Shown in pieces: positions 1-21,495 of a DNA stretch of 26,527 bases (its first letter is position 1; every line of letters begins with the position of its first letter). Source of the stretch: a virus; IMG/VR virus record IMGVR_UViG_3300046747_000157, positions 1 through 26,527 of that record; one strand, 5' to 3'. The notes beneath the pieces are model-generated. The model had not been told where the DNA came from, ran no database searches, and saw only the letters and a program-made list of their open reading frames with translations. The position numbers were made by a program, and so were the translations under genes.

Positions 1-3000
1 GCCCATCAGCTTGGTGAGGGCTGACAGCGTCTCATCAGCCACCCCGACAGCGGCAGCACCGGCTTTCTTGATCACCTCGGCGGTGGAGGGACGCGTGCCA
101 ACCTTCTGACGCGCCGCATCAAGCCACGCCTTGGTTTGCGGGCGCTGGTTGGCGTGATCGATCAGGCTCTTGAAATGATCGTAGTAGCCCTGGATCGTGC
201 CAGAGTACGGGCGGCCCTGCTCTTCTTTGCCGGGGATATCAGCCGTCGAGTTGGCGATCCGCAAGTGCTCATGGGAGGCGCGGTTATCGGCCTCCATGAT
301 CGGCTCAAGCTCGGCGACCTTCGTGTAGTCCCAGATTGGCTTCCCGTCCGGGCCCTTCTCTTTCTTGATCAGGTCATCGAACCAGCCGTGACGAGCCTTC
401 GTCATCTCCTCGTAGAACTTGATACGCTCCTTCATCCAAGCGAGCGACTCTTGCCAGGTCTTGAAGGCCGGGACCTTGTACGCCTCAGTCTTCGGCTCTG
501 GAGTTGTGGAGGTCTGAAGAACAGAGGTATCCCGAATAGAAATCTGATTGACCCCAATGCTCTTGGGGGTCCCGACAACAAGCTTTACATCACCATGCTG
601 CTTGAGCGCCGCTTCTACCTTCTCGGGTTTCCACGGGCCGTGCCATAACTTAGCACCGGTACCGCTAACAATACTAACGTCCTCCCCAGTCTTGGCACCA
701 CCAAACACATACGCAACGTCACCGGGATTGAGATCTTTCAGTTCATAGTTGTGAACAACTCTGGTCCCGCCCTTAACGCTGGCTTTGGGCCCGCCTCCGT
801 AGCTGCTGGCAATGTCATGAGACGAGGTGAGATAAACGCCATCGCCCATGTCTCCACCGCGAAATACACGGAGGGCATCCTTGCTTGTGGTCCCAGATTC
901 TACGCCACGAAATAGAGTTCCAAGATTTGGCTTGGCGTTAGGATCGATGTCGCTTGGCGATTCGGGAACTTTGTAGGCAGCGGTGGTCTTCTTCTGCTCA
1001 GGTAGCGTATCATTGAGGAAGTTGTCCAGCTCGTTGAGATCGTCTTGGGTAGCCGGGGTCAGAGCCCCGCCAGTGTCTCCAGGCTCACCAGGAGTCCCTC
1101 TAGGGTGTCCAGTTTCTTTAGGTCCCGTGGTAGGAGTTTCTGTACCAGTCTCTCCAGGTCCGGATTCATCGATGCCTCCGCCGAGAACTGGTCCGGGGTT
1201 TCGTGGTCCCCCGGTTCCTCCAGCACCACGCCCACCTCCGCGAGTCGTTCCCTTACCTCCCTCATCGCCTGTACCGGATCCGGTGCCTGGGACATAAGGT
1301 CGCTCAGTCTGACTTCGAACAACTGGTTTTGGTCCATGGATCAGCCCTTTCACTTCGTCCCACGTAGCGAGTACGCGGGGCACGTCGGCGGCCGGCACTT
1401 TGCGCAGCGACGGCGTTCGGCCGTCAATCACGATAACGTCGACAGGCCAGCCAGCCCCTTGACGTTCGTACAGGTTGCCCGACACAGTGAAGTGGTCGAC
1501 TACGTTGAAGTTCTTATATAGGACTTGGTAGAACTCGCGTTTAGCCTTACCCTGGTAGGCTTTTGAGCGCTTTGCCTCGGTGGACGCCATCTTGTTGACA
1601 CCGCCCACGATCAGCACCGCACGACCATCATCCTTCAGGTGCTGGAGCGCACGCAGCGCAATGACGTGGTCGGCTTCGTTGGTGTGGTAGCCTTTCTGGA
1701 TATCACTAAGATCGTACGTGATCGTCTTACCATGGTCATCCTTGGTGGCCCCGAACGGTGGGTTGGCCACGATGACGTCGTACGTCTCATCAGCGGGGTA
1801 GCTCTTCGGCGCGAGCGCGTCCTTCTGAAGTGGTGCAAAACCGAGATCCTGGAGATTGTTGGCGCGATTCTTGTCGATCTCGATAGCGGTGGTCTTGGAA
1901 GCGTTCGCCACGAGCAGCAACGCGCCATTGCCGGCGGTCGGTTCGAGGACAGACGACTCACGTGTCATACCTGCGAGGTAATCCACCATGTAGGCGAGGG
2001 GGATTGGTGTGGAGAGCTGCTGAAGGACCGCGGACGTGGTGGTCTTCGCAGACAGGCGGGGCTGACGACCGTAGAGGTCGAGCAGTGCGTCGAACGCATC
2101 CTTTTCGGTAATGTCCTTCGGGCCCGGGTTGGGCTTGATGCGGTGACTGAATTCGGTAGCAATCTCACGGGCGCGCTTGACGACACCAAGCTCTAATTCT
2201 TCCTCAATCTGCTTGTCGTTGAGGTCCTTGAAACCTTCCTCGCGCGCGAACGCACGAGCAGCCAGAATGTCCTTGAAGCCTTCGGCGCGGAAGTGATTCG
2301 CAAACGCCTCTGACAGCTTGGGCTGGCCGTAGCCACGCTTCACTGACCAGTCTTGCTTCTCGACCGTCACTTCCCCGGGGACGCCCGTAAGCTTCCCGGA
2401 CTTGTCGGACTGGAGTGCGTCGAAGAAGGCTGCGAACTTCTCGTTGATGTAGCGGCGCTCACTCCCGGTCGGGTATGGGTTGGCCTTGTACCCATCCCCA
2501 GCGAAGCGATCTTCCTCAACGCCCTGGACACCAAACGGGCTGGAGACGCCCATCTCCTTGAGCTTGTCGAACACGAACGCTTCCCCGGCGCGCGCCCACA
2601 GCTCGTTGGGGCGACGCCAATACTCGCCGAGCGCGTCAGCTTCCTTGTAGAAGTCAGTCGGGACAAGCTCGCGGTAGACAGTACCGTACTTGAGGGTATT
2701 AATTAGGCGCTCATAGAGCGGAATGTTCTTGTCGGCGCCCCTGAGCTGGTCCCGGTGCCACTTGCTGCCGCCATCCTTGGCGATCGCGGCACGAGACTCG
2801 TCGGCCCTCTTCTTCCAATTTTCGAGATGAACTGTCTCAGCCTTCAACTTTTCATCCACGCGCGCAAGCGCCTGAGCAGGCGTCTCGCGCTGGAAGTAGA
2901 GGGACTGCATAACGTCCATCGCGGCTTTCGCCAACCGCGGCGAGAAGTCGGGGAACTTATCCATGGCCCTGGCCTTGGTCCACTCGAAAGTAGCAATCTT

Positions 3001-6000
3001 GGGGACTGCCTTGTTTCTCCAGCCGGAGATCGAATGGATTGTCGACCCGTACGCCCCACTTTTGCGCATCAGATTGGCGACGTTGAAATCAATCCCATGC
3101 AGCAATTCGTGGATCAGGCTCCCGGCGTGCGGCCGCGTCACATTGGTGACGTTCTCGTGCGCCTCGAAGGTCGCCCCAGCCTTGCCGCCCTGTCCGCGCG
3201 CCCCCCACGCCATCCCGATCCGGAACGGACCTTGCATGGAAAGGGCTTTAGGATTTGTCCACCCAACCGCGTCCATGAAATCATGGAGGGCGTCGTACGC
3301 ATCATTCAGAAGCTGCTGGCGCTCATCACCCTTCCTGACCCAATTACCGAACTGATTGCCGCGGAAGTCAAAGTGACTTTTGCCGTCCTTGTTGGCGAAC
3401 TCTTCAGGCGTGATATCACGTCCCTGTCGATGGTCTGGCCCGACGCGCTCGATCGTCTTGAGGTACGGACGGACCGGTTCTTTGGGGCCGCCCTCGGGCT
3501 TGCCCTTGTTGGTTTCGTATAGCTCGCGAGCCTTGACGACGGCTTCATCGCGCGTATCGAAAAACTGGAACCCAGTATCCTGCTTGAACCTTCCATCCTT
3601 CTCATAGGGATTGAAGGTACCGTCCTTCAGGAGTGGCTTGCCGCTCTTATCATCAATGCTCCAGCCCGACTTCTGGCTTAGCTCAGTCTTCTTGAACCTG
3701 GAGTGGTTGAGGGTGTAGACCCGATTCCACGGCTCAATGTTGGGCCAGCCCTTCTTGATCTCAGCATCGATCTTGCGGCGATCCTTGCTGGTGAGTTCGA
3801 ACGGGTGCTTGTAGGAGTAGCTGCTACCCCAGCGCTTCTTAGTCTTGCGCAGAACCGGTGCGAGCTTGTCCCAATCCGAGTAGGTCCCGATACCGCTCAC
3901 CATCTCGTTGAGCAGATCCTCAACCCCCTTGGTGTCATCCCAGGTCTTGACACCCTCAGCGACCTCGCGGAGCTTGCGTACGAGATCAATGTACTGTTGC
4001 TGCTGTCCAGCGTCGTGGGGCTGCACCGGGAGCTTGTCGTACCAGAGCTTGACCGCGTAGGCGGCACTCGCCTCCACGCCCTCGCCCACCATCTTGGCGT
4101 AGTCAGGCCGCGGCCATATGTTATCTTTCTTGATGAACTTGGTCTTCTCGGCATCCGTCATCCCGCCGAGTTCTTCGTCCGTGAGACCGGTGCCAAACTT
4201 GTGCTTGCGGGCGCCCTTGATCACCTCGCCGGTATCAGTGATGCCGGGTGACTTTGGCCCCCCGGTGCTGCCGCGGCCCTTCTTGACCTTTGGTGCCGGG
4301 AGATCAGTGACCTCGCCTTGCTGGAGAACCGTCTCCCCACCGATCACCATCGAGGGCTTGCGGATTATGACCTCATCGCCCATCTTCGGCTCAGTCTCAG
4401 AGCCTCCCGTATAGACGTGATGAACCGGGTCGAACGCTACCTTATCGCCAGTCTTCCCGACCGCCGTGATGCCCTGCTCCTTGCCGATCTTCATCACCCA
4501 GCGAACCAGAGCGGCATCGCTCTTGGGTTCGTACTTGAGCATACGGGCGGCCATGCGCGCCGACTGCGTGACGAGCTTATTCTTGAGTTCGGCGAATTTC
4601 TCTTTCGATGTTTCCTTCAGTTGCGGCTTGATGTAGCGATCCTGCATCGCCGCCGCGATGTATTTGTTCGCCTCGGCTTGCACCATCTGGTCTTGCCAGG
4701 CTGGCTCAGTCTTACCAAGAGCCTTCGTGACTTCAGCGGGCGTTCGTGCGGCCGTACCATCCGCATTGAGAACATACGCCATGTGCCGCTTTTCGGAGCC
4801 AATACTCAGCGCGGCCTGATCGATTCTCGGCGTTATCTCCGATTTATTATCCATTGGATAAAGGGTGATCTTGCCATCACTTTGCAATTGCTTCAGCGTT
4901 GCATGCAATTCAGGCAAAGGCATATCGAGTTTATCAGCCAAATCGGCAATGAGTATCCGTCCTGTACTCTGTACCGATTGGGCAGCAGCACTGGTTAGAT
5001 CACCGGCTTCCGTCTTTACTGCGTTCTCTTCTGTAAAACTCGGGAAGTTATGACTCAGCAAACTGCCGGACCACTTTTTGTTCTTCTTGATCCAGCGATA
5101 TCCGGAAGCGAACCAGAGCTTCTTTCCGTTCGGGAATTCTTTGAGTTCAGGCTCACTGACAATCTTGATTCTATCGGTCGCCTTACCATTCGGCACCACG
5201 ATGACGCGCGGCTCGAACGGCTTCTCAGGCGCCTTCAACGAGCTGTCAGCGATCTTGAGCGCGATGGTCTTGCGGCCCTCTTTGCGCGTGACGCGGTAGC
5301 CCGGCGCACCATCCTTCATCGCGATGGCGTTGGTGACCTTGTATTCTTTCCCGGCGTACTTTCCGGTCTCGACCGTTACTCGATCCCCGACTGCGAACCT
5401 ATGCTCGCCAGGGCCTCCGCGTACGGATTCTGTAGCGGCTCCCTCTGATCGCTCAGTTGCGGCGCCAGCGACGGACTTTCCTGATTCGGTAGTGAGTCCG
5501 GACTTCCCGGGCTCGGATCCTTGAGCTTTCCTTGCTCCTTCGCCCTCGCCAGTGCCAACCCCATGCCGGCTAGGTTGCCCGCTTTCCGGCTCCCCGACTG
5601 CCGTATTTTCTTGGCCCGGCTCCTGTACTGCGCCGGATTCAGTGCTCGTCTCATCGGTGACCTCTTCCCATGCGTGAGCGAGCGCCTCAAGCGAGGGCTC
5701 GCCGTCCTTCATGAACTTGCGGGCTTTGGTCAACACGTCCTCTGGGATTTTGTCGAAGGGGAAGCCGAGCTTGGCCGCAGCTTTCCTCAACAGAGGGTCG
5801 TAGTCAACCTGTTTTAGAACTGGGGTTTCACCAGTGGGACTTTCGGTGCCTTCTGGGCGCCCATGAACGGAGGTTGGTTCCCCGGTTGGGTGCTCGGATT
5901 GAACAGTCCCTTCGGGGTGGGATTCGGGCTGAACAGTGCCTGGTCCTTCGCTGACACCGGATTTGCTAGTGGGCTGGCGTGGACCGCCGGTGCCAGTGGT

Positions 6001-9000
6001 TTCAGTTTCATTTTCTTGTTCGCCAGCTTCGCCGCGCTCATGAACCCCGTGTTCAGTAGTTTCGGCAGCTCCCCGCTCAGTTGCGGCGCCTGCTTCCTGA
6101 GCTTGTACGCCATGTTCAGGTGAAACGACGGCTTGAACGTCGGTGTCAATTTCGTCGTGAGCTTGTTCGACGGCGTCCCTGGTATCTTTGCCATTCTGTT
6201 TCTCTATCTCTTCATCGGTGGTGAGGCCGAGACTCTTTGCGTACTCCGTCATCACGACGCCGAGCGCCTGCCCGACGTCCCAGCCGTGCTTCTTCATCAG
6301 CTCAGCGACGGCCGTATGGACGGCATCGAAGTGCTGGAATTTCTCCCACTCCTGTGCCGACATGGTCGGCCTGAGAACGGCTTCTATCTCTTTGTGGTAG
6401 TCCTTGGTGCCTGTTACTTCGTCGAGGAACGCATCAAGCTCACTGATTTTTTCGTCAAGATTCTTCTCGGGCTGCGGAACCGGCTGCTCAGTCGCTGGTT
6501 GAGTGGTCGGACCCTCGGCTGCGGCACCCCCCTCGCCCCCCGATCGCGGCGGGGTCCTAGGACCACCACCTACCTCAGTCCCCCCACTGGAGGTAGGAGA
6601 GGATGGCCCACCGGTCGGACCCTCTCCTGCGCTGACCTCGCCGGGAGAGGGTCCTTCTTTTGCAACCTCATGGAGTTCCGTGATAGGATTGCCAAAATGG
6701 TTCCGTGTTCCGCTATTCCAAAGCTCAAGCGGTAGCAATCCTTTTGCCGGAACAGTGCTGTAAGAAAGGTTTGTCGATGTCGGAGAACCACCCACCTTAC
6801 CGGTCTTTGTGTTCTTCCAGACGGTTGATATCCTATCGGCGCGTACGACAATCCGTGCGCCACCACCCTGCGGCGGAGCAAGAGCGCGAGCCACCTGTTC
6901 GGTCACATAGACGGTCTGATTCGACCGTGGCTGCGGACCACGAGCCGACTCAGAACCCGCTGGCCTGGTGGTGGATGCGTTGCGAGTAGTGGTGCCGTCA
7001 TTATGCACCACGTAGGTCGAGCCCTGCGCGGTCGTGAAGCCAGCGACTTTGGGCTGGCCAGTCTGCTTCTGCGGGTTGGCGAGGCGCTCGCGCAAGCCCT
7101 TGTTGTACGGCTGCTTGGCGACCTTGCCGGTCTTGGTCCACTCTTTGAACTGTTCGGGGGTAATTGACGTGATGGCACCGACACGCGACATCGCGTTGTC
7201 GCTGTAACTACCCAGGTAAGCGTGGACAGCCGCGGCCGCGCTCGGGAAGCCGTGCATGACCTTGTGCTCGTCGAACTTGCCATCCTTATCGAGCTGGTCG
7301 ATCACAAAGGTGTCGGTGCCGTGCCCAAGGAACATATCGAGGCCCTGGGGCTTCGCCTTGGTGCTGTCGGCCCCTTGAATGCGTTTGGCACGCCCATACG
7401 GGACCGGCATGGCAGGCGAGATCCACTCGGGCTTGCCGGTCTCCTTATTGATCGGGCCTTTGCGCACGCCGCCACGATCGGTCTCGATCGAGACGCTCCC
7501 CATACCGGTGAGGCCAAGCTCTGGGACGTTGACGTGCGTGTGCTGGTAGCGGCTACTGATTCGCTGCTGTGGGGATGGATTGGGGTTGGCGACGCCACCC
7601 TGGGCTGCCTGCTCGGGGGTGAGCGGCGCCTCGCGCGTGCCAGGCTTAGGACCGGTCTGCGGCGCCTGGTACTTGTAGCGCCCCTCGATAACGGCGCGCT
7701 GCGCCTCCCGGAGACGGCGCTCGGGCGACATCTTGGCGATGTCCTCAGGTGACCAGTCCTTGAGGGCGGCGGTCTGCTGCTCGGGCGTCCATTCGGCGAC
7801 GGGGGGTCCGTACTTCTGGCGAAGCTGATTCGCAAACGCCACGATGTCGGCTTCGCGGTTCTGGCCCTTGAAGTTCGCCGGATCTTGGTCGAATGCCTTG
7901 AGGGTCTCGGACGCCTCAGCGAAGGTCTTGTCTTCCTTTGGCGGCTCGGTGCTGGTCTCACCGGTAGCGGCACCGGGGGCAGCAGTACCGGCCTCGCGCG
8001 CCGCGCGCGCCGCCATGAAGTCGTCCATCTCCTTGCGCCACGCGGCGCCACGCTCGGTGCCGGGTCCGGTATAGGGGCCACCTGGTGAGCCAGGGGCTGG
8101 ACCACCCGGCGCAGCCCCGGCGCGCCGCAGGAAGTCGGCCACGTCCTCTGGACTGGACGGACCACCACCCGGTGGCGGAGTAATAGGTGCCTCAGGAGGA
8201 GGCGCACCAGGAGGCCCCTTCTCATTGCGTTGCATGACGGCGCCGGTACCACCAAAGACCACGCCTCCGAACATGCCACCCAGGAAGTTGTTGGTTACGG
8301 AGAGGACTTGCTGGTAGGCGGTCTTGTCACCACCGACGTACTCTTGAGCCCACTCCGAAATGATCTGTTGCAAGCCCTCGGTAGAACCCTCGATAAGGGC
8401 GCCATTGACGATATCGTGGACCAGTCGGTGCCGGAGACTGGTTTTGGCCTTTTCCAGAAGCTTTTTACCGAGGATGTTGTACTCGCTGTAGATATCGAGC
8501 ATGGCCATCGGCACGGCCGCGGTAGCCGCAACCGAGTCGACCCATTTCTGCGAGACCGTACCGTCGGCGATCTTCTTGTTGATGGCATCACTCTCGGCAA
8601 TGTCGTCTCCGACATCACCAAGGTTCTGCACGTAGGACGGCAATGACATGCCGGCCCAGTTGCCAATGGTCCCACCCACAACAGCACCGGGTGGGCCAGC
8701 TACGGCCGTGCCCCATGCGCTACCGACGGCAGTACCAATGCCAGCACCCACGAACGACGGGATCGAGCTGGCGACCGCCTGCGCGGTATTGTAACCAGCG
8801 AACGATCCAACATCTTGGAGGAACGGAACAAGCCCCTCGCCGGTGCGAATGTTTTCAATACCGGCCACACGTGCGTTGTATGGATCGGATGACTTCTTGC
8901 CGTACGCAGTTAGCTCCTTGGAGGCGGCCTCCATCTCGGGCCGATTGAACAAGCGGCCATAAATCTCACCAGCGCGCCCAATCATCTTGGCGTTCTGGTA

Positions 9001-9702
9001 CCACCCACCAACGGCGCCTTTGGTAATTTCGTACGAATCACCTTCCTTGGGTGGCTGCGCCTTCGGGGCCCCCTCTTCATTCATGAAGCCTTCGTAGGCG
9101 CGCTTCGCAAAACTAGCCGTATTTCCGATGCCTCGGCTGATCATCCCGCCGGGGGTGAGATCCGAGATCGGCTTGAGCGGCCGCATGACGTCAATGACAG
9201 CGTCCCGCCAGTCACCAAATTTACCAGGCTCTTCCGGAGTTGGGGCCGGTGCCGCGGGTGCCGCCGGCTGCGGAGCGGCGAACTTGGAGAAATCCTGACC
9301 CTCTTCTGCCGGTGGCGTTGGTGTGGGCGAAGGCGTTGTCTCACCGGGAGTCGGCTGTGCTTGTCCTGGGGCCGCGAATTTCGAGAAGTCGTCAGTCGTC
9401 TCGCCCTTGGAGGCGGGAGGCTCTGGCGTAGCCGGCGCGGTGGGCGACGGCGGTGGGGCAAGTGGGGGGATTCTGTCTTGGGTCGCTGGAATCAGTTTGT
9501 TCCAGTCGGTTTCGCGGGCTGTCTTGCGAGCCAAGCGATTCATGACATCCGCGGACGAGATGAAGTTGTCGTCCGGGGCACTGGCCATAGCGTAATTCGT
9601 GAGATCACGAATCACGCCCATGGGGTCGTTAGGTTGCTGCTGAGTCTGATCAGGTTCGACGGTGTCGCCGCCGAGACCGAAAACGCTTTCGTCGAGAGCC
9701 AT
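1..9702 (-). CDS. Giant polyvalent internal-virion-type protein (3' end beyond window)
   Basis: The frame beginning at ATG 9702 was followed codon by codon to position 1 without a stop, giving at least 3,234 residues; the C-terminus lies outside the window. Order by residue: disordered Pro-rich N-terminus with DFSKFAAP at 105-112 and 137-144; Gly-rich hydrophobic region about 310-490; inorganic-pyrophosphatase-like domain about 735-868; KOW/SH3-like segment about 1435-1500; winged-helix-like segment about 1577-1640; an ARK...WPRPDY segment about 1825-1960; FGNWV segment plus HELLH zincin about 2105-2378; N6-adenine methylase about 2545-2765; Gly/Thr-rich linker; ADP-ribosyltransferase-like domain about 2920-3050. 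This mix is that of phage polyvalent proteins, which are thought to be packaged and delivered with DNA. It starts 2 nt after the previous stop, behind a weak ribosome site. It is last in the visible structural operon. The reading frame is certain; domain names come from motif recognition; delivery into the host is inference. Confidence 0.9.
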   Translation of the reverse strand, partial: MALDESVFGLGGDTVEPDQTQQQPNDPMGVIRDLTNYAMASAPDDNFISSADVMNRLARKTARETDWNKLIPATQDRIPPLAPPPSPTAPATPEPPASKGETTDDFSKFAAPGQAQPTPGETTPSPTPTPPAEEGQDFSKFAAPQPAAPAAPAPTPEEPGKFGDWRDAVIDVMRPLKPISDLTPGGMISRGIGNTASFAKRAYEGFMNEEGAPKAQPPKEGDSYEITKGAVGGWYQNAKMIGRAGEIYGRLFNRPEMEAASKELTAYGKKSSDPYNARVAGIENIRTGEGLVPFLQDVGSFAGYNTAQAVASSIPSFVGAGIGTAVGSAWGTAVAGPPGAVVGGTIGNWAGMSLPSYVQNLGDVGDDIAESDAINKKIADGTVSQKWVDSVAATAAVPMAMLDIYSEYNILGKKLLEKAKTSLRHRLVHDIVNGALIEGSTEGLQQIISEWAQEYVGGDKTAYQQVLSVTNNFLGGMFGGVVFGGTGAVMQRNEKGPPGAPPPEAPITPPPGGGPSSPEDVADFLRRAGAAPGGPAPGSPGGPYTGPGTERGAAWRKEMDDFMAARAAREAGTAAPGAATGETSTEPPKEDKTFAEASETLKAFDQDPANFKGQNREADIVAFANQLRQKYGPPVAEWTPEQQTAALKDWSPEDIAKMSPERRLREAQRAVIEGRYKYQAPQTGPKPGTREAPLTPEQAAQGGVANPNPSPQQRISSRYQHTHVNVPELGLTGMGSVSIETDRGGVRKGPINKETGKPEWISPAMPVPYGRAKRIQGADSTKAKPQGLDMFLGHGTDTFVIDQLDKDGKFDEHKVMHGFPSAAAAVHAYLGSYSDNAMSRVGAITSITPEQFKEWTKTGKVAKQPYNKGLRERLANPQKQTGQPKVAGFTTAQGSTYVVHNDGTTTRNASTTRPAGSESARGPQPRSNQTVYVTEQVARALAPPQGGGARIVVRADRISTVWKNTKTGKVGGSPTSTNLSYSTVPAKGLLPLELWNSGTRNHFGNPITELHEVAKEGPSPGEVSAGEGPTGGPSSPTSSGGTEVGGGPRTPPRSGGEGGAAAEGPTTQPATEQPVPQPEKNLDEKISELDAFLDEVTGTKDYHKEIEAVLRPTMSAQEWEKFQHFDAVHTAVAELMKKHGWDVGQALGVVMTEYAKSLGLTTDEEIEKQNGKDTRDAVEQAHDEIDTDVQAVVSPEHGVQAQEAGAATERGAAETTEHGVHERGEAGEQENETETTGTGGPRQPTSKSGVSEGPGTVQPESHPEGTVQSEHPTGEPTSVHGRPEGTESPTGETPVLKQVDYDPLLRKAAAKLGFPFDKIPEDVLTKARKFMKDGEPSLEALAHAWEEVTDETSTESGAVQEPGQENTAVGEPESGQPSRHGVGTGEGEGARKAQGSEPGKSGLTTESGKSVAGAATERSEGAATESVRGGPGEHRFAVGDRVTVETGKYAGKEYKVTNAIAMKDGAPGYRVTRKEGRKTIALKIADSSLKAPEKPFEPRVIVVPNGKATDRIKIVSEPELKEFPNGKKLWFASGYRWIKKNKKWSGSLLSHNFPSFTEENAVKTEAGDLTSAAAQSVQSTGRILIADLADKLDMPLPELHATLKQLQSDGKITLYPMDNKSEITPRIDQAALSIGSEKRHMAYVLNADGTAARTPAEVTKALGKTEPAWQDQMVQAEANKYIAAAMQDRYIKPQLKETSKEKFAELKNKLVTQSARMAARMLKYEPKSDAALVRWVMKIGKEQGITAVGKTGDKVAFDPVHHVYTGGSETEPKMGDEVIIRKPSMVIGGETVLQQGEVTDLPAPKVKKGRGSTGGPKSPGITDTGEVIKGARKHKFGTGLTDEELGGMTDAEKTKFIKKDNIWPRPDYAKMVGEGVEASAAYAVKLWYDKLPVQPHDAGQQQQYIDLVRKLREVAEGVKTWDDTKGVEDLLNEMVSGIGTYSDWDKLAPVLRKTKKRWGSSYSYKHPFELTSKDRRKIDAEIKKGWPNIEPWNRVYTLNHSRFKKTELSQKSGWSIDDKSGKPLLKDGTFNPYEKDGRFKQDTGFQFFDTRDEAVVKARELYETNKGKPEGGPKEPVRPYLKTIERVGPDHRQGRDITPEEFANKDGKSHFDFRGNQFGNWVRKGDERQQLLNDAYDALHDFMDAVGWTNPKALSMQGPFRIGMAWGARGQGGKAGATFEAHENVTNVTRPHAGSLIHELLHGIDFNVANLMRKSGAYGSTIHSISGWRNKAVPKIATFEWTKARAMDKFPDFSPRLAKAAMDVMQSLYFQRETPAQALARVDEKLKAETVHLENWKKRADESRAAIAKDGGSKWHRDQLRGADKNIPLYERLINTLKYGTVYRELVPTDFYKEADALGEYWRRPNELWARAGEAFVFDKLKEMGVSSPFGVQGVEEDRFAGDGYKANPYPTGSERRYINEKFAAFFDALQSDKSGKLTGVPGEVTVEKQDWSVKRGYGQPKLSEAFANHFRAEGFKDILAARAFAREEGFKDLNDKQIEEELELGVVKRAREIATEFSHRIKPNPGPKDITEKDAFDALLDLYGRQPRLSAKTTTSAVLQQLSTPIPLAYMVDYLAGMTRESSVLEPTAGNGALLLVANASKTTAIEIDKNRANNLQDLGFAPLQKDALAPKSYPADETYDVIVANPPFGATKDDHGKTITYDLSDIQKGYHTNEADHVIALRALQHLKDDGRAVLIVGGVNKMASTEAKRSKAYQGKAKREFYQVLYKNFNVVDHFTVSGNLYERQGAGWPVDVIVIDGRTPSLRKVPAADVPRVLATWDEVKGLIHGPKPVVRSQTERPYVPGTGSGTGDEGGKGTTRGGGRGAGGTGGPRNPGPVLGGGIDESGPGETGTETPTTGPKETGHPRGTPGEPGDTGGALTPATQDDLNELDNFLNDTLPEQKKTTAAYKVPESPSDIDPNAKPNLGTLFRGVESGTTSKDALRVFRGGDMGDGVYLTSSHDIASSYGGGPKASVKGGTRVVHNYELKDLNPGDVAYVFGGAKTGEDVSIVSGTGAKLWHGPWKPEKVEAALKQHGDVKLVVGTPKSIGVNQISIRDTSVLQTSTTPEPKTEAYKVPAFKTWQESLAWMKERIKFYEEMTKARHGWFDDLIKKEKGPDGKPIWDYTKVAELEPIMEADNRASHEHLRIANSTADIPGKEEQGRPYSGTIQGYYDHFKSLIDHANQRPQTKAWLDAARQKVGTRPSTAEVIKKAGAAAVGVADETLSALTKLMG
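553..945 (-). other. ADP-ribosyltransferase-like domain of the giant protein
   Basis: Residues about 2920-3050. GTLFRGVESG (Arg at about 2932) is followed by GDGVYLTSSHDIASSYGGG (Tyr at about 2956) and a beta-rich stretch. This resembles the Arg and Tyr/Ser-Thr-Ser parts of ADP-ribosyltransferase folds found in polyvalent proteins. The catalytic Glu could not be placed with confidence, so activity is uncertain. Confidence 0.5.
1408..2070 (-). other. N6-adenine DNA methylase domain of the giant protein
   Basis: Residues about 2545-2765. An SAM-dependent Rossmann methylase with LSTPIPLAYMV (motif X-like), VLEPTAGNGALL (motif I, E at 2587), AIEIDKN (motif II) and DVIVANPPFG (catalytic motif IV, N at 2647). 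The C-terminal NLYERQGAGWPVDVIVIDGR is typical of the methylases linked to strawberry-notch helicases in phages. All the key motifs are present, so it should be active. No cognate restriction enzyme is in view. Target sequence unknown. Confidence 0.82.
2569..3390 (-). other. FGNWV segment plus HELLH zincin-like metallopeptidase of the giant protein
   Basis: Residues about 2105-2378. FDFRGNQFGNWV, an AYDAL helix, ALSMQGPFRIGMAWGARGQG and GSLIHELLHGIDF follow one another as in polyvalent proteins that pair an accessory domain with a zinc metallopeptidase. H2198, E2199 and H2202 form an HExxH motif (two zinc ligands and the general base). A later block, ELWARAGEAFVF near 2367, is typical of the family. 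The third zinc ligand was not identified. A role in self-processing or in cutting a host protein is inference. Confidence 0.72.
3823..4230 (-). other. Large-polyvalent-protein-associated segment (ARK...WPRPDY)
   Basis: Residues about 1825-1960 begin GARKHKFGTGL, continue with a Thr/Asp/Glu stretch, then KKDNIWPRPDY and a helical part ending in VREVAEGVKT-like sequence. I recognise this as a conserved accessory segment of phage polyvalent proteins but cannot fix its family number. No activity is assigned. Confidence 0.5.
4783..4974 (-). other. Winged-helix-like segment of the giant protein
   Basis: Residues about 1577-1640 read GRILIADLADKLDMPLPEL followed by a second helix and GKITLYPM, the usual helix-turn-helix plus wing layout. 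A KOW-like stretch with VGDRVTVETGKYAGKEYKV lies upstream at about residue 1440. Both assignments rest on pattern only, and nucleic-acid binding is unproven. Confidence 0.4.
7099..7500 (-). other. Inorganic-pyrophosphatase-like domain (polyvalent type) of the giant protein
   Basis: Residues about 735-868 read like the pyrophosphatase-type domain described in phage and plasmid polyvalent proteins: SIETDRGGVRKG, then PVPYGRAKRIQGAD, then the core FVIDQLDKDGKFDEHKVMHG, then ITPEQFKEW near the end. The order and spacing of these blocks are what point to the family. The real substrate of such domains is not established. Confidence 0.65.
8233..8775 (-). other. Glycine-zipper hydrophobic region of the giant protein
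   Basis: Residues about 310-490 contain two Gly/Ala/Val-rich stretches, one starting FVGAGIGTAVGSAWG and one reading FLGGMFGGVVFGG, separated by a helical part. The composition suits membrane-inserting or tightly packed helices, as in phage ejection proteins. Membrane insertion is inferred and no defined family was recognised. Confidence 0.5.
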
Positions 9703-9704: not shown

Positions 9705-11264
9705 TTACTGAGTTCCGGCCTGATTATTGTCACTATAATACTGTTGTCTTTCTAAATCGTTGATGTCCTTGTCTTTCTGGGCAGCCTTTTCATTCTGGTC
9801 ATGCGCGTCGCCCAACCTGTCCATCACGGTCTCTTGCGCGCGCTGCACTGGAGTAGCGCCGGGCTTCGGAATAAACCAAGCCCCCGGCGGAACGAGCTGC
9901 TTAAACTGCTCATCCGTCATCTTGCCACCCCCGATAGCGTGGGGATCGAACGCATTCGCCGCATTGGTGCCGGCGAGCTTGTTCTTGGCGGCGACTTCCG
10001 GCGTAATATTGTATTGCTTGTAGAGTTCCTGACGCCGCGCCTCGAACTTCTGCCTTACTGTCTCAAGATCTTTCTCATACTTAGCCGCATCCGAGGTACT
10101 CATATCAGCGCCATACTTGCGGCGGACGTTCTTGAATTCATTTTCCATCATTGTGTTGATGGGGCGATCGATCATAGTCTGTCGGCCGATCGGGCTCTGC
10201 CACATCTTCTCATTGGTACCGAGTGTCAGCTTTCCGTTCTGATCAACCTTGGCACCCCAAACCTTGGCTTGGGCGTTGACAAGATCCATCTTGGCTTTCG
10301 CAGTCCCAAGCTCGAACGGAAGCTTGGTCAGCTTCTCATCCTCAGCGAACTCCTGTTTGTGCTCGGATTCGTCCTGCTTGCGGTTGGCGGTATCTTGCGC
10401 CGACCCACCCGCCATGGACTTACCAAATCCCCCGGCGAACGCTCCGAACTTGCTGCCAGGATTCGCATTGAGACCCGAGAGACCGGCGCCGAGCGATGCC
10501 GCCATGCGGCTATCCTGGTTATTGTAATTGCCACCGCGCTTCGGCCAGCCGAACTGCGCAGCACGATCCTGCGGAGCACCACCACCGATGAGCTGCTGGA
10601 GCAAACCACCCAGAGGCCCATTGGCGGTAGGCGCAGCAGTCGGCGGAAGAGCGCCGGGGGCCTCGCGCGGCGCGGGCGGCGTGAGGGGCAGCGGAGCTGG
10701 ACCACCCTGCGACGGCAGCGGGCCTTGGGGAGTGAATGCCTGTTCTGGTGTCGGGAACGGCGCCACCCCGGACGGCCCACCGGCGAGCGGGCCAACGAAT
10801 GGCTCAACCTGGCTGCGTGCGTAGTCAGACCCTATCCCGCCTGGTGCGCCCGGTAAGGGTTGCGGCGCTGGTGCCTGCATAGGATTATTGGGCCCGACCG
10901 TACTAGGAAGCTCTGGCATCCCAGCCGGTGGTGCCATGGGGTTGCCGGGCATGTTCTTGGAGGCGTCGATACTACTCCCCGGATCAAGGGGGTTGTTACC
11001 AGTGTTCTGAGTCGGATCACCGCTCAGAAGCCCTCTCCCAGCCACGCTGCTGATACCCATGTCGTCATTCGCGCCACCCTTGGCGGCGCCCATCGGGCCC
11101 GTGTCATGCGGCGTGAGCGACGACATGGTGGCACCGGCGCTGAGCATCTTCGCCAGACTATCAATCATGCTGTCGAAGTTGAGCCCACCGCCGAGCTGCT
11201 CGAAGAAACTGCCGCCGGGTTGACCGCCAGGCTGGCTGCCATCCGCACTGTAGGTATCGCTCAT
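9705..11264 (-). CDS. Gly/Pro-rich internal virion-like protein (519 aa)
   Basis: Not assigned to a family. Residues 1-220 are Gly/Pro/Ala-rich and probably disordered, with FFEQLGGGLNF near the start. Residues 230-300 are Gly/Ala-rich (AASLGAGLSGLN, FGAFAGGFGKSMAGG), and residues 300-519 are charged and helical with a late PPGAWFIPKPGA block. The layout suits a packaged or ejected internal protein, and it lies directly upstream of the giant gene. ATG 11264 follows AAGGA about 10 nt upstream and the gene ends in TAA. The mixed low-complexity and helical make-up recalls phage internal proteins; a role in ejection is inferred from position. Confidence 0.8.
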   Translation of the reverse strand: MSDTYSADGSQPGGQPGGSFFEQLGGGLNFDSMIDSLAKMLSAGATMSSLTPHDTGPMGAAKGGANDDMGISSVAGRGLLSGDPTQNTGNNPLDPGSSIDASKNMPGNPMAPPAGMPELPSTVGPNNPMQAPAPQPLPGAPGGIGSDYARSQVEPFVGPLAGGPSGVAPFPTPEQAFTPQGPLPSQGGPAPLPLTPPAPREAPGALPPTAAPTANGPLGGLLQQLIGGGAPQDRAAQFGWPKRGGNYNNQDSRMAASLGAGLSGLNANPGSKFGAFAGGFGKSMAGGSAQDTANRKQDESEHKQEFAEDEKLTKLPFELGTAKAKMDLVNAQAKVWGAKVDQNGKLTLGTNEKMWQSPIGRQTMIDRPINTMMENEFKNVRRKYGADMSTSDAAKYEKDLETVRQKFEARRQELYKQYNITPEVAAKNKLAGTNAANAFDPHAIGGGKMTDEQFKQLVPPGAWFIPKPGATPVQRAQETVMDRLGDAHDQNEKAAQKDKDINDLERQQYYSDNNQAGTQ

Positions 11265-13151: not shown

Positions 13152-13163
13152 TGTGTGGCACCC

Positions 13164-13706
13164 TTAGTGTTTAGTCTCTGATGGCTGGTCTGGAGCAAAT
13201 GTCTGCACGCGGGTGAAGTGGATACCGTTGTTACGCATTCGCTTATGACCGATGATAACGACTGGCAGATCGGCGCTTTTGCCGATGATGTGGGCTTCGG
13301 CGAGCAGTCTTGCCCCGACGCCCTTGAACTTGAGATCGTCCTCAACGAAGAACCAGCGATTGGTGAGGAACTTTGAATCGCTGTACCACCAATCGACACT
13401 GATCAACCCAAGGGTCCCCACGATCTTCCCGTTGAGGATCGCCATGATCGAGGCGCCCTCATTGGCGACACGAAGGACCTCAGCAACAGCCTTGAGCTGA
13501 TTGACTTCCCCGAGCAGAGATGGTCCGGCGGCACGAATCAGGAACTGGTAGACAGCCCAGCAATCTTCGTTGGACTCGGCGAACCTGATCTCGATAGCAT
13601 CTTGAATGGCGATCTCAGGTGGTGCGGGTTGATCCACCTTTTTTGAAATCGTCAACGAGGGTTGAGACGAATTCCCTGAGTTCCGCGAGCGTCGCCGCCG
13701 TGACAT
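13164..13706 (-). CDS. GNAT-family N-acetyltransferase
   Basis: 180 residues. GNAT enzymes move an acetyl group from acetyl-CoA to an amine. After an Arg/Ser-rich N-terminus of about 35 residues comes IEIRFAESNEDCW (first strand and helix), then NGKIVGTLGLISV (central strands) and FVEDDLKFKGVGARLLAEA, which carries the acetyl-CoA pyrophosphate-binding loop (K126-F-K-G-V-G131). ATG 13706 is fixed by a strong AAGGAGG 8 nt upstream, although this makes the gene overlap the preceding one by 92 nt in another frame. It lies among virion genes, so a virion or host protein could be its target; the substrate cannot be inferred. Confidence 0.8.
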   Translation of the reverse strand: MSRRRRSRNSGNSSQPSLTISKKVDQPAPPEIAIQDAIEIRFAESNEDCWAVYQFLIRAAGPSLLGEVNQLKAVAEVLRVANEGASIMAILNGKIVGTLGLISVDWWYSDSKFLTNRWFFVEDDLKFKGVGARLLAEAHIIGKSADLPVVIIGHKRMRNNGIHFTRVQTFAPDQPSETKH

Positions 13707-13878
13707 CGATAGTCCTCCTTGGTGTGTATGCGCCGGTGATTAAGAAGTTGTTGGAAACCTGCACGATATCGTTCTCTTTGCTGGCGGCCGCAATCTGCTG
13801 CGCTGCCTGATGCAACCAATTGATCTGATCATGCACCGGCATCCCAAATATTCCGCCGATCAGAGTAACTTGCCTCAT
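13615..13878 (-). CDS. Small conserved-looking protein (87 aa) between tail hub and GNAT genes
   Basis: No family recognised. It has a hydrophobic start (MRQVTLIGGIFGMPV), a helix INWLHQAAQQIAAAS, a strand-like VSNNFLITGAYTPRRTIDV and a helix TLAELREFVSTLVDDF. Its ATG overlaps the stop of the tail hub gene as ATGA, a strong sign of translational coupling. Its last 92 nt are shared with the GNAT gene in another frame. The balanced composition and the ATGA junction favour a real gene; the function is unknown. Confidence 0.72.
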   Translation of the reverse strand: MRQVTLIGGIFGMPVHDQINWLHQAAQQIAAASKENDIVQVSNNFLITGAYTPRRTIDVTAATLAELREFVSTLVDDFKKGGSTRTT

Positions 13879-15671
13879 CGCGCTGTTCCCTTGGGTTTCA
13901 TGAAGACGGTCGTCTTACCCAATCGCATGAAGCTGTTGAGCACATTGCTGGAGTAGGTCAGCCCGATGTAGCGACCGCAGATATCGTAATCGATGAGACC
14001 GGAGATCGTTGTCGTAACCTCAGTCTCGCTGTCAATCGGACTGGCGTCGTTCAGGCGGTCCCAGGCTTCAGCCAGCACCGTAATGTCACCGGCCTGCTGG
14101 GCGAAGTCGAACAAGATACCGTCGACCCGCATGTTCATCAGGCCCTCATGAAGCGCTATCGGGCCCATGGAGATCGTCCACGCAATGGCTACGCCATCGC
14201 CGTTATTGGTGTTTTCGTGCTGGTAAATCTTCCCGTCAGTCGCGCCCAGATACGGTCGCGTATCGCCTTGGGTATAGTGCGTCCCGGAGACGCGCCCCAG
14301 CGTAGTGGCGCCCCATGTGTGGGTCGACCAGCACTGATCCTTGATACCGTAGATCACCGAGTGCATCGGGTTGGTGTCACCGATCACGGTGTAGAAGAAT
14401 TCAATTTCGTCATCACGTGTGTTGTAGACAGCGTGACACTGGAAGGCAGCTTCCGCCTTGAGAGTTTCAAAGACATAATCCCGAATGTCCTCGACGTGCG
14501 GCATCTTGCGAACCGAACCGTCGTACATCCAGAACGATTCTTGCCCCTGCCAGTAGGCTTTACCATCAACCGTCACCGCGGCGCCTGGCGCGATCAGCCC
14601 ACAATCCTTGCCCGCAAGTGAGACGTTGTAGACAAACTGCGACCCCGTATACTGCATGAGATAGAGCGCACCGTCCGACCACACGAGCGATAGGAACGGA
14701 CCCAGCACCCGCCCAGAAACCAGCTTAGAGCCCTCTTGAAGGGTGCGGGTAAATGCGGTGTTGCTCGATGATGGCGTCCAGATCGTGAAGTCGCCCTGGG
14801 ACGACCCGTGCAGCACCATCTGATCACGCAGCGCGATCACGAAGCGCTCTGGCGTGATGAACATGGCGCGAAAATCTGTCGGCGCCGTTGCCACAATTGT
14901 GGAGCGCAGCAATGGATTGTAATCAGTTGACGGGTTCCACTTGTAGAGCGAACCACCATTGTAGGCGGCCAGTAGGATCTGACCGAAGTTATCCAATGAC
15001 CAGATGCGTGGTTCGATAAAGATCGTGGAGCTGGCGTGAGCACTGCCCCACGTCCCCAAGCCCCAGCCGCCGACGCCCCAACCTAAGCCGTAAGCGCCAA
15101 GCTCGACACCGATATTGATCTCGTATGAATACGTGACCGCGGCACCGCCGCCGGAACCGCTGGCATTTGCCGTGGTGTTGGCCGTTACCACAAACGCATT
15201 GGCATTCGTCACCGTCAACACAATGAATGTGCCATTCATGGTGACATTGTTGAAAGTCGACGCACCAGCCCAAACAACCGTATCGCCCTCAATCACACCG
15301 TGTGCATTGTGGGCTACCGATACGCTCGTTGAGCCGTTTGTGGTGGTGAACGGATTGTTGGCCTCTGTCCCGGTCAGTCGATACGGCGTGATGTCATTCT
15401 GGACACCACTGAAATCGTACACATAGAGTTTGCGGTAGGTGCCGGCACCCATGAAAGAATTAGAGTTATTATCTCGCCAGGCACGCAGTGCGCGCGGTTG
15501 CCCTGACGTCGCGGTCACAAAGGCACGTGCCCAGCCGCCACGTTTCTCGGGGCGACCGGACTTGAAACGGACCATGTTGGAGTCAGTCCAGCGCCCCTGT
15601 GTGAGACGCTTAGACTCTGTTTTCACCACCCCGGGTGGGGGCAGGAGCGGAATTTCCCTGTCCGCAACCAT
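13875..15671 (-). CDS. Tail hub/nozzle or packaged-DNA stabilisation protein
   Basis: 598 residues, beta-rich. The start (PLLPPPGVVKTESKRLTQGR, WTDSNMVRFKSGRPEKRGGW) is typical of podovirus stabilisation/nozzle proteins in the P22 gp10 class, which plug the tail channel and stop DNA leakage. An HNAHGVIEGDTVVWAG module at about 113-188 resembles the FCCH-type domain and is inserted before a Gly/Trp-rich stretch (GLGWGVGGWGLGTWGS, about 195-210). Repeated beta motifs such as QMVLHGSSQGDFTIWTP and GKIYQHENTNNGDG suit a propeller. ATG 15671 lies 3 nt after the stop of the collar fibre gene and the stop overlaps the next gene. Role by family resemblance; the exact place in the tail is inferred. 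Confidence 0.82.
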   Translation of the reverse strand: MVADREIPLLPPPGVVKTESKRLTQGRWTDSNMVRFKSGRPEKRGGWARAFVTATSGQPRALRAWRDNNSNSFMGAGTYRKLYVYDFSGVQNDITPYRLTGTEANNPFTTTNGSTSVSVAHNAHGVIEGDTVVWAGASTFNNVTMNGTFIVLTVTNANAFVVTANTTANASGSGGGAAVTYSYEINIGVELGAYGLGWGVGGWGLGTWGSAHASSTIFIEPRIWSLDNFGQILLAAYNGGSLYKWNPSTDYNPLLRSTIVATAPTDFRAMFITPERFVIALRDQMVLHGSSQGDFTIWTPSSSNTAFTRTLQEGSKLVSGRVLGPFLSLVWSDGALYLMQYTGSQFVYNVSLAGKDCGLIAPGAAVTVDGKAYWQGQESFWMYDGSVRKMPHVEDIRDYVFETLKAEAAFQCHAVYNTRDDEIEFFYTVIGDTNPMHSVIYGIKDQCWSTHTWGATTLGRVSGTHYTQGDTRPYLGATDGKIYQHENTNNGDGVAIAWTISMGPIALHEGLMNMRVDGILFDFAQQAGDITVLAEAWDRLNDASPIDSETEVTTTISGLIDYDICGRYIGLTYSSNVLNSFMRLGKTTVFMKPKGTAR

Positions 15672-15674
15672 GGA

Positions 15675-16718
15675 TCACAAGCGAATGCACATCATGACGG
15701 AGAGGTTCGTCGGCCGTGCCTCAGAAGATCCTGATGTGTCGGTAGAGCCCGATATGGTATGGGTATGTGTACCGCTCGATGCGATTGAATGAGTATGGTC
15801 AACGGCCGCGTTGATCGTGATACCGGTTGTTGCGCTATCAGTGCCGCCGTCGGTCGTTCCCTGGGAGACGTTGATTGTGGCGATTGGAGAGCCACCAGAG
15901 TTTCCGAGCTTGTTGATGGCAAGATCGTGGTGGATGACGTGGGTGTGGCCAGGGTCGTTGATCGTGTGCGTGTGCGCGCCACCAGCCCCCGTCGCGCCAC
16001 CATGGTTGTGATCGCCGCCGGCATTGACCGTAACGGCCGTTAGCGTATGGGTGTGTGACTGGTTCTGGTCAGCCTGGGACGTACCGACCGTCACTGCACC
16101 AGTTCGCGACCGAAGAAACTTTCCGGCGGTCTTGCCGTCAGGAAGCGTGAATGTGGTCGAGCCGTTGCCGACGCCCCAGGTCGTGCCGATCTTGGCAAAC
16201 AGATCGATACCGAGACCAGCGCGCGAGATGGTCGAGCCATCGCACTCCGCAGCCCCATTCGGCACAGTAGTACCGCCATACCAGAAGATCTCACCGACAC
16301 TGTCCTGATCGAGCCGTCGGCAGATGTTGTTGCCGTCGCAGAAGATCAGCTTGGTGGTGCCCTGCGGCACGCACACCGCGGTACCGGACGTCGTCTTGAT
16401 CAGGACGCCGAAAGCCCCGCTGGTGTTGTTACGAAAGACCCAGGTCTTCGCCAGGTTCGGAACAATGATCGTATGATCGGATCCCAATGCTCCGGTAAGA
16501 TTCTGAATATACTCCAGAGGCTGAGTCGGCCCGGCCGGAGGTGGTGTTCCTGATAAATCGGTTGTCCCACCGGTGATAGCGCGCGTCGTGTAGCCGCAGA
16601 TCGCTTTCTCCAGGATCGCAAATACTGAGATGTCGCAATTGTCGCCCCAGGTGTTGTTGTTATTGCCGGTTCCCTGATCCAGGAAGCCCAGGATGGCAGA
16701 ATAGGTGTCAGCAGTCAT
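15675..16718 (-). CDS. Tail fibre with phage collar domain and His-x-His tip
   Basis: 347 residues. Residues 1-140 form a beta-rich N-terminal part (TWGDNCDISVFAILEKAI, then TWVFRNNTSGAFGVLIKT) like phage fibres that attach to the tail. Residues 142-197 form a tail-collar domain (GEIFWYGGTTVPNGAAECDG, then FTLPDGKTAGKFLRS). Residues 218-325 carry six His-x-His motifs (222-224, 237-239, 249-251, 258-260, 308-310, 318-320), a pattern that binds metal along trimeric fibre tips such as T4 gp37. The end, EARPTNLSVMMCIRL, is the usual collar-fibre finish. It probably binds the host receptor. The start overlaps the adaptor gene stop as TGATG, with GGGGTGA just upstream. Confidence 0.88.
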   Translation of the reverse strand: MTADTYSAILGFLDQGTGNNNNTWGDNCDISVFAILEKAICGYTTRAITGGTTDLSGTPPPAGPTQPLEYIQNLTGALGSDHTIIVPNLAKTWVFRNNTSGAFGVLIKTTSGTAVCVPQGTTKLIFCDGNNICRRLDQDSVGEIFWYGGTTVPNGAAECDGSTISRAGLGIDLFAKIGTTWGVGNGSTTFTLPDGKTAGKFLRSRTGAVTVGTSQADQNQSHTHTLTAVTVNAGGDHNHGGATGAGGAHTHTINDPGHTHVIHHDLAINKLGNSGGSPIATINVSQGTTDGGTDSATTGITINAAVDHTHSIASSGTHTHTISGSTDTSGSSEARPTNLSVMMCIRL

Positions 16719-17623
16719 CAGTCACCCCAGTTCGTGGTCTCAATGTCAGCGCCGCGGTAGCGAAGGTCATCTTCCTCCTGCGCGCGCTGGACAGCCAATG
16801 AGAGTTGCTGCATCGCTCGGTTGAACGTCTCGGTCTCCTCCATCCAGTCAGCCGCCGCCGCCACGCATGCCTTGCGCAGAATCTGCGGATACCGATCGGT
16901 GAGAAAGTTTGTTGGATTGGTTGTGGAAAGTAATGGAAGGGCCTTGTAGTAGCGGAGCTGGCAGGTGTGCTGCTCGTCGTACGCCTGGTCGAACTGGATT
17001 TTCTCTTCCCAGACTGACCAGTACTTTGGCTGCCCAGGCTCCAATCGGCTGACCGTGTAGGTGTTGCTGGCGCCCCCGAAGGCGCCGCTGCCGGACGATA
17101 TGACGTCGCCAGTATTGATGGTGAATTGATCGGCGCTATTGATCGTGACAATCTCGTAGGAGCTATCCAGTGTCTGACCGTTGGCGGGTGTCACGCCTGC
17201 CGGGGTGAACACGCTCCCCTGTGTGAGACCGTGCGCAATCTTGTTCACCACCACCGTTGACAGGTTGATGGTGGCCACGAACGAGTCAGTCAGTAGCGTG
17301 CCGGAAAGAAGTGCGAACGGCCGCAGATTATGAACGACCGCCTCAGCCTTCTGTCGAAACTTGAAATTGTGGCTCGTGGAGACAATGTCCCCGATCGGAT
17401 CCAGCCAGCGCGACGGAAGCGGCACGCTCGAATTCCCGACCGCCATCTTGAAGCTGAAGACCTTCTGCATCTCGCGAGTGCGCAGGAGTTGGTAGATCAG
17501 CGCCTGTGCCTCTTCCAAGATGGTCGGGAGGACTGGCTCTACCTTGCTGTAGTGAACCCAATTGGCGATGGACCCGGCCGTGCCTTTTGTCGCGACCAGG
17601 TTGGTGTAAGTCATCAGCGTCAT
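16718..17623 (-). CDS. Head-to-tail adaptor-like protein with inserted FCCH-like module
   Basis: About 301 residues from ATG 17623, 2 nt after the stop of the preceding gene; an ATG at 17614 is also possible and neither has a strong ribosome site. Residues 1-115 hold a helical part (PTILEEAQALIYQLLRTREM) and VPLPSRWLDPIGDI. A module at about 121-190 (VNKIAHGLTQGSVF to FTINTG) is like the one in the tail hub protein. The C-terminal part (KYWSVWEEKIQFDQAYDE, LRYYKALPLLS, TNFLTDRYPQILRKACVAAA, then a helix) is the pattern of podovirus adaptors joining portal and nozzle. Its place just before the fibre and hub genes fits. Family resemblance is good but the exact family is not certain. Confidence 0.75.
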   Translation of the reverse strand: MTLMTYTNLVATKGTAGSIANWVHYSKVEPVLPTILEEAQALIYQLLRTREMQKVFSFKMAVGNSSVPLPSRWLDPIGDIVSTSHNFKFRQKAEAVVHNLRPFALLSGTLLTDSFVATINLSTVVVNKIAHGLTQGSVFTPAGVTPANGQTLDSSYEIVTINSADQFTINTGDVISSGSGAFGGASNTYTVSRLEPGQPKYWSVWEEKIQFDQAYDEQHTCQLRYYKALPLLSTTNPTNFLTDRYPQILRKACVAAAADWMEETETFNRAMQQLSLAVQRAQEEDDLRYRGADIETTNWGD

Positions 17624-17625
17624 GA

Positions 17626-18440: not shown

Positions 18441-18460
18441 GATTCTCTCCTGGCGTTTGG

Positions 18461-18493: not shown

Positions 18494-18500
18494 CCTGTCT

Positions 18501-18522: not shown

Positions 18523-18523
18523 C

Positions 18524-18763: not shown

Positions 18764-18778
18764 CTGAAGGCTCCTTTC

Positions 18779-19009: not shown

Positions 19010-19040
19010 GATTTTCGATCCTTGTTCAGTTGGTGGAATA

Positions 19041-19069: not shown

Positions 19070-19097
19070 CCAGATATTGTAGTCGACAAGACAGACC

Positions 19098-20502: not shown

Positions 20503-21495
20503 TTACGCGCTGGTGCTGGTGTCCCACATCACGATGCGCGAGTTCGTCGCGTCGGTGTGTACGATACCGAAACCACCGAGGTAGTACCACATGATGCCGC
20601 GAGACCGACCGTAGTCGGACGGAATCTTGGCCCGAATCTCTTCGGGAATGCAGACCGCCTCAGTAACGGTGTCGCCACCGAGCATGAACATCCAGGACGA
20701 GAGTCCGTTGCTCCATGCGCCGGCAGTGCCGGTCCAGGGATCGAACGCCGTCGAGTTCGCACCGCCGCCCTTCGGAATGAAGGTCTGTTCGATGAAACGA
20801 ACCGACTCATACCGACCGATCTCCCCGTTGAAGATCTGCTGGAGACCAGTCTCAGTGTACTGGTGAATGCCCTCCAGGGTGTTCTTCAGGTTACGGAACG
20901 TGGACGGATGAGAGACAGACACGTAGTCATCCGACGTATACGCCGGGATGTTACGCTCCTTCATCGTATCCACGAGGGCCTTGATGTGGCCGGTGCCGAG
21001 TGCCACAGAATTCGCCTGGGACGCGGTACCATTGGTATCAAGGGTGAACGACGTGGTGGAGTTCGTGGTGGACGCACGAAGCTGCGTCGCCTTGAACTGC
21101 AAGTACGACTCAATGTCGAAATACTTGCGAGCATCGTCCTTCAGGGTCTTGTCGATGACCGCTGCCACCTGGTGCTTAGCCAGAGCGAGCAACTTGCCCG
21201 TGTATGGTACAGAATTACCTGCCTCAAACACAGTCAGCGAGCGCTGAAGGATGGTGAAACCAGTCTCAGGGACCGGTGCATTTTCATCGAGACGTCGCCC
21301 CTGGGTACCCACGTTGCCGTAGACATCCCAAAAGAACTTGTCTCCGCGGTTGAGGCCCTTTTGGGTGCCATCTTCCGCATCGCAGAGCTGACGCATTTTG
21401 GTCAGCGGCTGGACTTGCTGACGGAGAACATCCGACAACTCGTCCGAATACATAAAGCCGCCTTCCGCAGCGACGCCCCAAAGCTGTCCTGCCAT
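20503..21495 (-). CDS. Major capsid protein, N4-gp56-type
   Basis: 330 residues, HK97-fold expected. The order of features suits the N4-gp56 family: early helix YSDELSDVLRQQVQPLTKM, DKFFWDVYGNVGTQGRRL, LDENAPVPETGF, a spine helix VAAVIDKTLKDDARKYFDIE, a beta part with VSVSHPSTFRNLKN and IFNGEIGRYESVRFIEQTFI near residue 225. It assembles the icosahedral head with the scaffold encoded just upstream. ATG 21495 has AGGAG about 9 nt upstream. The two paralogues that follow directly would add to the same shell. Family resemblance is strong; the exact subfamily was not verified. Confidence 0.9.
   Translation of the reverse strand: MAGQLWGVAAEGGFMYSDELSDVLRQQVQPLTKMRQLCDAEDGTQKGLNRGDKFFWDVYGNVGTQGRRLDENAPVPETGFTILQRSLTVFEAGNSVPYTGKLLALAKHQVAAVIDKTLKDDARKYFDIESYLQFKATQLRASTTNSTTSFTLDTNGTASQANSVALGTGHIKALVDTMKERNIPAYTSDDYVSVSHPSTFRNLKNTLEGIHQYTETGLQQIFNGEIGRYESVRFIEQTFIPKGGGANSTAFDPWTGTAGAWSNGLSSWMFMLGGDTVTEAVCIPEEIRAKIPSDYGRSRGIMWYYLGGFGIVHTDATNSRIVMWDTSTSA

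Follow-up and report, generated by a model that had tools for sequence, protein, structure and literature searches.

Polyvalent proteins of phages combine several domains of disparate activity on one polypeptide, are often longer than 2,000 aa and are encoded near virion genes, and their injection into the host has been predicted chiefly on the basis of their domains and gene neighbourhood (Iyer et al. 2017, PMC5512222). The same study described a phage-type clade of polyvalent zincins and assigned the motifs TP and NPP(Y/F) to DarB-type adenine methylases of the gamma class. In the Bcep22-like Burkholderia phage JC1, the DarB-like protein gp69 (4,515 aa) was detected in purified virions by mass spectrometry with 51 unique peptides (PMC9144972). 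DarB of P1 is also packaged, and its first 30 residues suffice for targeting a reporter to the capsid (PMC9024508). In N4-like phages, the giant virion RNA polymerase contains no cysteine, a property explained by its passage through the tail and the periplasm (PMC3715699; PMC3915230).

The window (the whole stretch of DNA analyzed here, 26,527 bases) is a linear viral contig in which a search for an end repeat found none. As claimed in the initial annotation, its minus strand carries an uninterrupted frame of at least 3,234 codons that leaves the window: re-reading from the ATG at 9702 to base 1 gave zero stops, while 26-160 stops occur in the other five frames over the same span. At the base composition of the window, a run this long has a chance probability of about 10^-49. 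The ATG lies two bases past the stop of the preceding gene in a tightly packed, operon-like arrangement. Since the contig is linear and lacks an end repeat, the frame is cut by the contig end. Homology to independent phages is collinear with the frame at aa 211-548, 650-885 and 1816-2853, which argues, in these parts only, against a chimera or a hidden frameshift; aa 2854-3234 have no such collinear support from independent phages. The frame encodes most of a giant DarB-like polyvalent protein of a podovirus-like phage (Table 1). In keeping with the description of Iyer et al. (2017), it joins several disparate activities (InPase, zincin with LPD1 and LPD5, and methylase) in more than 3,234 aa, and it lies near genes for head, tail and structural proteins at 11940-21495. 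It is a new, divergent member of the already known class of injected polyvalent phage proteins with a presumed counter-defence role.

Table 1. Features of the giant gene and its neighbours in the window
Position	Strand	Residues	Feature	Remarks
1..9702	-		Giant polyvalent protein	3,234 codons; 0 cysteines; cut by contig end
1..87	-	3206-3234	Segment similar to the beginning of the pre-ATPase region in L020 and L095	Suggestive only
517..930	-	2925-3062	ART-like segment	Unproven
1378..2220	-	2495-2775	DarB-type N6-adenine methylase	TP, EPTAGNG, NPPF
2392..4257	-	1816-2437	LPD5 - zincin metallopeptidase - LPD1 module	
3088..3111	-	2198-2205	Zinc motif HELLHGID	
4864..4974	-	1577-1613	Possible winged helix	HTH_24, 18.6 bits, below cut-off of 21.9
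6673..7089	-	872-1010	Conserved domain without Pfam family	
7132..7557	-	716-857	InPase domain	Pfam
8059..9072	-	211-548	Gly-rich N-terminal module	Common to POI1126 gp30, L095, L096 and L097
9262..9393	-	104-147	DFSKFAAP twice	Copies at aa 105 and 137
9705..11264	-		519-aa protein directly upstream of the giant	Cysteine-free; without a family; possible partner in ejection
13164..13706	-		GNAT-like protein	Weak match; syntenic in sister phage
13875..15671	-		Virion structural protein	phrog_3287; relatives carry the annotation 'stabilization protein'
15675..16718	-		Tail collar/fibre protein	
20503..21495	-		Major head protein	phrog_1357

No match was obtained in DNA-level searches of phages and plasmids, or when viral contigs were searched with three portions of the protein as single sequences. 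Alignment-based searches succeeded, and relatives of the zincin module (more than 500) and of the methylase (more than 300) were found in viral contigs. One of the closest systems is a sister phage (L020/G001, IMGVR_UViG_3300044833_000023, a contig of 63.3 kb), whose capsid protein is 74% identical and whose virion genes are in the same order. Its giant, complete at 4,523 aa, contains InPase, LPD1, methylase, a Strawberry-notch ATPase (AAA_34 and Helicase_C_4) and LPD38. It shares 39% identity with the window protein over aa 1816-2833, has InPase, zincin/LPD1 and methylase in the same order and is free of cysteine, but it has no ART-like segment after the methylase. Judged from this homologue, the frame would represent roughly the first 60% of the protein, with about 1,900-2,400 residues probably missing beyond the contig; the full-length product would reach about 5,100-5,600 aa if the remainder resembles that of the sister.

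Among the described phages, 1) gp30 of the Ochrobactrum phage POI1126 (4,841 aa) shares the N-terminal module (33%) and InPase (35%) with the window protein, has methylase followed by ATPase and lacks cysteine, but differs in its N-terminal peptidoglycan hydrolases and in having no LPD1 zincin match by Pfam. 2) BS-TP4 gp3 shares InPase and methylase. 3) The Y11 protein and a 2,793-aa protein of an Stx phage share the zincin region. 4) PBC5 shares InPase and the unnamed domain at aa 872-1010. 5) JC1 gp69, the nearest analogue studied experimentally elsewhere, occupies the same late slot, has a DarB-type methylase and is cysteine-free; in contrast, it carries a transglycosylase, no InPase by Pfam and a different ATPase profile, and its neighbour genes have no detectable homology to those of the window, comparison of the latter with the late genes of JC1, POI1126 and the Stx phage giving only weak or low-complexity matches. 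6) P1 DarB combines an adenine methylase with an SNF2-type ATPase (in the window phage the ATPase is predicted past the contig end), is packaged and acts in antirestriction, but is smaller, contains cysteine and does not carry the other polyvalent domains in the same chain. 7) The N4-like virion RNA polymerase is likewise giant and cysteine-free, and it is packaged and injected, as predicted for the window protein, but its cargo is an RNA polymerase.

The initial annotation listed a pyrophosphatase-like domain, a zincin, an N6 methylase and an ART, and considered their pairing in one chain unusual. Profiles and motifs bear out the first three, and the combination is not unusual: InPase, zincin and methylase occur in the same order in one frame in five other loci (L020, L095, L096, L154 and L166). 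InPase, zincin and ART are found together in L079, L063 and L016, and InPase, methylase and ART in L141; all four domains in one chain were not found among the 177 loci.

No relative of the N-terminal module was found in bacterial genomes or plasmids. A membrane-spanning N-terminus was considered and dropped, as no segment of the giant passes a simple hydrophobicity test for transmembrane helices. The InPase domain was detected by Pfam at E 1.9e-21 (76.8 bits, cut-off 26.8). The acids D779, D789, D811 and E812 as well as K814 are kept, and an acid present in 83% of 46 relatives aligns with Q786, beside an insertion; the InPase may thus lack full catalytic competence. The adjoining domain at aa 872-1010, with no Pfam match, is kept in PBC5 gp22, L103, L106 and L107 (E 1e-14 to 1e-17); it precedes InPase in PBC5 and follows it in the window protein.

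In the zincin module, LPD1 was detected by Pfam at aa 2359-2432 (E 6e-17) and LPD5 below threshold, and the CLCA_X model (NCBIfam) matches aa 2086-2215 far under its cut-off. The chain has a single HEXXH (H2198-E-L-L-H, with D2205), and H2198, E2199, H2202, D2205, E2367 and R2371 are invariant across 84 relatives. The HEXXH, the downstream Glu and the Asp three residues past HEXXH thus agree with the phage-type clade of Iyer et al. (2017), which the module fits except for the His at the end of strand 2, replaced by Thr2178 (His in 99% of the 84 relatives). Despite Thr2178, the zincin assignment was retained because of the metal ligands and LPD1.

The methylase was detected by Pfam (N6_Mtase, aa 2626-2699, E 2.6e-5), and a PDB search with its profile led to type I restriction methylases. 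Both DarB-type motifs are present (S2564-T-P and N2647-P-P-F), and EPTAGNG is also kept. An AAA_34 ATPase was found in 10 of 10 related giants scanned, and in the window phage this region would lie past the contig end. Over the last 29 residues (aa 3206-3234) there is a suggestive likeness to the beginning of the pre-ATPase region in L020 and L095, with scores reached by 18 and 6 of 1000 shuffles, respectively, although equally high scores occur elsewhere in the giant. From the relatives, a Strawberry-notch-type ATPase is predicted just past the contig end.

For the ART, the fourth member of the claimed set, the evidence is suggestive only. By eye, aa 2930-3062 (LFRGVE ... GDGVYLTSSHDIASSYG ... 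NQISIRDTSVL) resemble an ART; they lie in the linker region that follows the methylase, and the sister phage lacks such a segment there. Pfam gave no ART-PolyVal match, the only hit to the segment being DUF3990 (E 0.054). A profile built from domains of related giants, selected for their similarity to the ART that Pfam confirms in Shewanella phage Y11, scored 12.5 bits on the segment and 6.0 in the context of the entire protein, the highest of 1000 shuffles scoring 4.7; another profile was set aside as partly circular, its members having been picked with a pattern overlapping the tested motif. Since the strand-1 His is replaced by R2932, the segment was not filed as a polyvalent ART (Tox-ART-HYD2 / ART-PolyVal). 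An AlphaFold model based on nine aligned ART domains (pLDDT 56.6, low confidence) matched no ART in a fold search, which further lowers the claim, and we regard an ART domain in aa 2925-3062 as possible.

The window giant has no cysteine in 3,234 residues, and the other window proteins have 32 in 5,485. Relatives are similar: in 149 related loci, mean cysteine content was 0.025% in giants and 0.86% in other long frames (the longest non-overlapping ORFs, mechanically picked, from sequences that are related to one another). The giant was the lower in 138 loci, the remaining 11 consisting of nine ties at zero and two without a frame to compare. Over all 157 giants (L006-L177), cysteine amounted to 0.028%, and 86 had none. 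The gene immediately upstream averaged 0.174%, 74 of 103 being cysteine-free. In a domain-controlled comparison, the region aligned to the L020 methylase-ATPase contained 5 cysteines in 93,480 residues of 84 phage proteins and 20 in 3,814 residues of just five plasmid homologues. The same domains thus retain cysteine in plasmids, whereas in phage giants its content has dropped about 100-fold.

Among the long genes without cysteine in annotated phages are those of giants and of proteins presumed to be internal to the virion, e.g. the 'DNA transfer protein' of DSL-LC04 with its neighbours and the 'internal virion protein D' of MW202675, whereas the polymerase, primase and stabilization proteins contain cysteine. 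JC1 gp64, gp67, gp68 and gp69 are all cysteine-free and virion-associated by mass spectrometry (PMC9144972). Some other structural proteins also lack cysteine, so its absence alone says little in a short protein, and the 9 cysteines in the 2,255 residues of P1 DarB mean that the mark is not universal for DarB-like proteins. Cysteine is nowhere mentioned by Iyer et al. (2017, PMC5512222), and our literature search, which covered few subscription journals, found no paper applying its absence to polyvalent proteins. As the ejection rationale is published for the N4-type virion RNA polymerase, the absence in the window protein supports delivery. Because injection of polyvalent proteins has so far been predicted largely from gene context, an independent mark may help to sort ejected from non-ejected members and gives the statement that they are 'thought to be delivered' a sequence test. 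It also points to small neighbours, such as the product of 9705-11264, as likely ejection partners.

We consider with good confidence that the window giant is a polyvalent protein which a podovirus-like phage packages into its virion and ejects. The lack of cysteine could instead be an accident of descent from one cysteine-poor ancestor rather than the result of selection for ejection, a reading to which the mutual relatedness of the phage giants and the small number of plasmid homologues compared (n = 5) lend some weight. However, identities among the giants are mostly 25-50%, so that cysteine had ample opportunity to reappear, the genes immediately upstream are also cysteine-poor, and the N4-like virion RNA polymerase shares the property, making such an accident quite improbable. 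A late protein that stays unpackaged and acts in the producing cell appears very unlikely, since the homologous giants belong to the virion in both JC1 and P1 (PMC9144972; PMC9024508) and a cytoplasmic protein would have no reason to lack cysteine, which plasmid homologues of the same domains keep.

The giant might also be mainly a structural conduit for DNA ejection, forming or lining a trans-envelope channel, with its enzyme domains as accessory or decaying passengers. Its slot is that of the DNA-transfer and internal virion proteins of related phages, its N-terminal module is Gly-rich, the InPase is altered and the ART doubtful, all of which would suit a conduit. The methylase motifs and zincin metal ligands are nevertheless wholly kept, no transmembrane-type segment is present, and the small upstream genes are better conduit candidates; we therefore hold this role to be unlikely.

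Our preferred reading, ejection of a polyvalent protein, bears on the earlier proposal that a podovirus-like phage packages and ejects such a protein as an anti-defence agent. A polyvalent protein beside virion genes is indeed present, and gene position, the virion-confirmed analogue and the lack of cysteine make its delivery from the virion very probable; the anti-defence role is suggested by analogy with P1 DarB. Most likely, it is a self-processing multi-enzyme protein whose methylase-ATPase part guards the incoming DNA. Gene position and relatives suggest that the giant would be made late with the virion proteins and packaged. Threaded in extended form through the portal and tail, together with the DNA or ahead of it, the chain would then cross the oxidising periplasm, the absence of cysteine being the presumed sequence mark of exit and crossing. 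The Gly-rich N-terminal module may, speculatively, help in the envelope. In the cytoplasm, the zincin, with its metal ligands intact, would cut Gly/Pro-rich linkers and free the enzymes, as proposed by Iyer et al. (2017), and the N6 methylase and predicted ATPase would mark the phage DNA or shield it from restriction, much as DarB protects P1. If they are active, InPase and the ART-like segment, with active sites altered or unproven, might have nucleotides or host proteins as their targets. Against the preferred reading as a whole count the InPase acid and the zincin-site His that this protein has not retained, the unproven ART, the location of the predicted ATPase beyond the contig and the cysteines of P1 DarB.

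How the giants enter the capsid may be reflected at their N-termini. A duplicated 9-mer within the first 120 residues, counted from the first Met of each frame, was found in 35% of 107 non-redundant giants (L015-L177) at a score that only 0.9% of shuffles, and 1.7% of other windows taken from these proteins, attain. The peptides vary between phages and agree within one, and many have aromatic residues (e.g. GPWEKYAAP/GPWAKYAAP, NPFADPNFG/NPFADPDFG and KFWENDPIV/KFWANDPIA). In the window protein, the second DFSKFAAP lies past the 120-residue range, making it an illustration and not a counted case. These peptides are a concrete candidate for the recruitment of giants into the capsid, although a packaging role is conjecture. 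Tentatively, and with more doubt than confidence in the two halves jointly, we suggest that near-total cysteine absence, a measured property, is a general mark of giant ejected phage proteins, weaker in adjoining genes, and that the duplicated aromatic N-terminal peptide, conjecturally, is a packaging signal. If true, ejected effectors would be recognisable from sequence alone.

Further observations concern the structural region. The phrog_3287 protein and the structural protein encoded at 16718-17665 have a 96-aa stretch in common (29% identity), possibly a shared tail module. Two tandem paralogues (19527-20030 and 20014-20502; 68% identical) adjoin the major head protein gene, and the sister phage has one copy. 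A gene for a 2OG-Fe(II) oxygenase (24099-24719) lies within the structural region, as in DSL-LC04 and HTVC027P.
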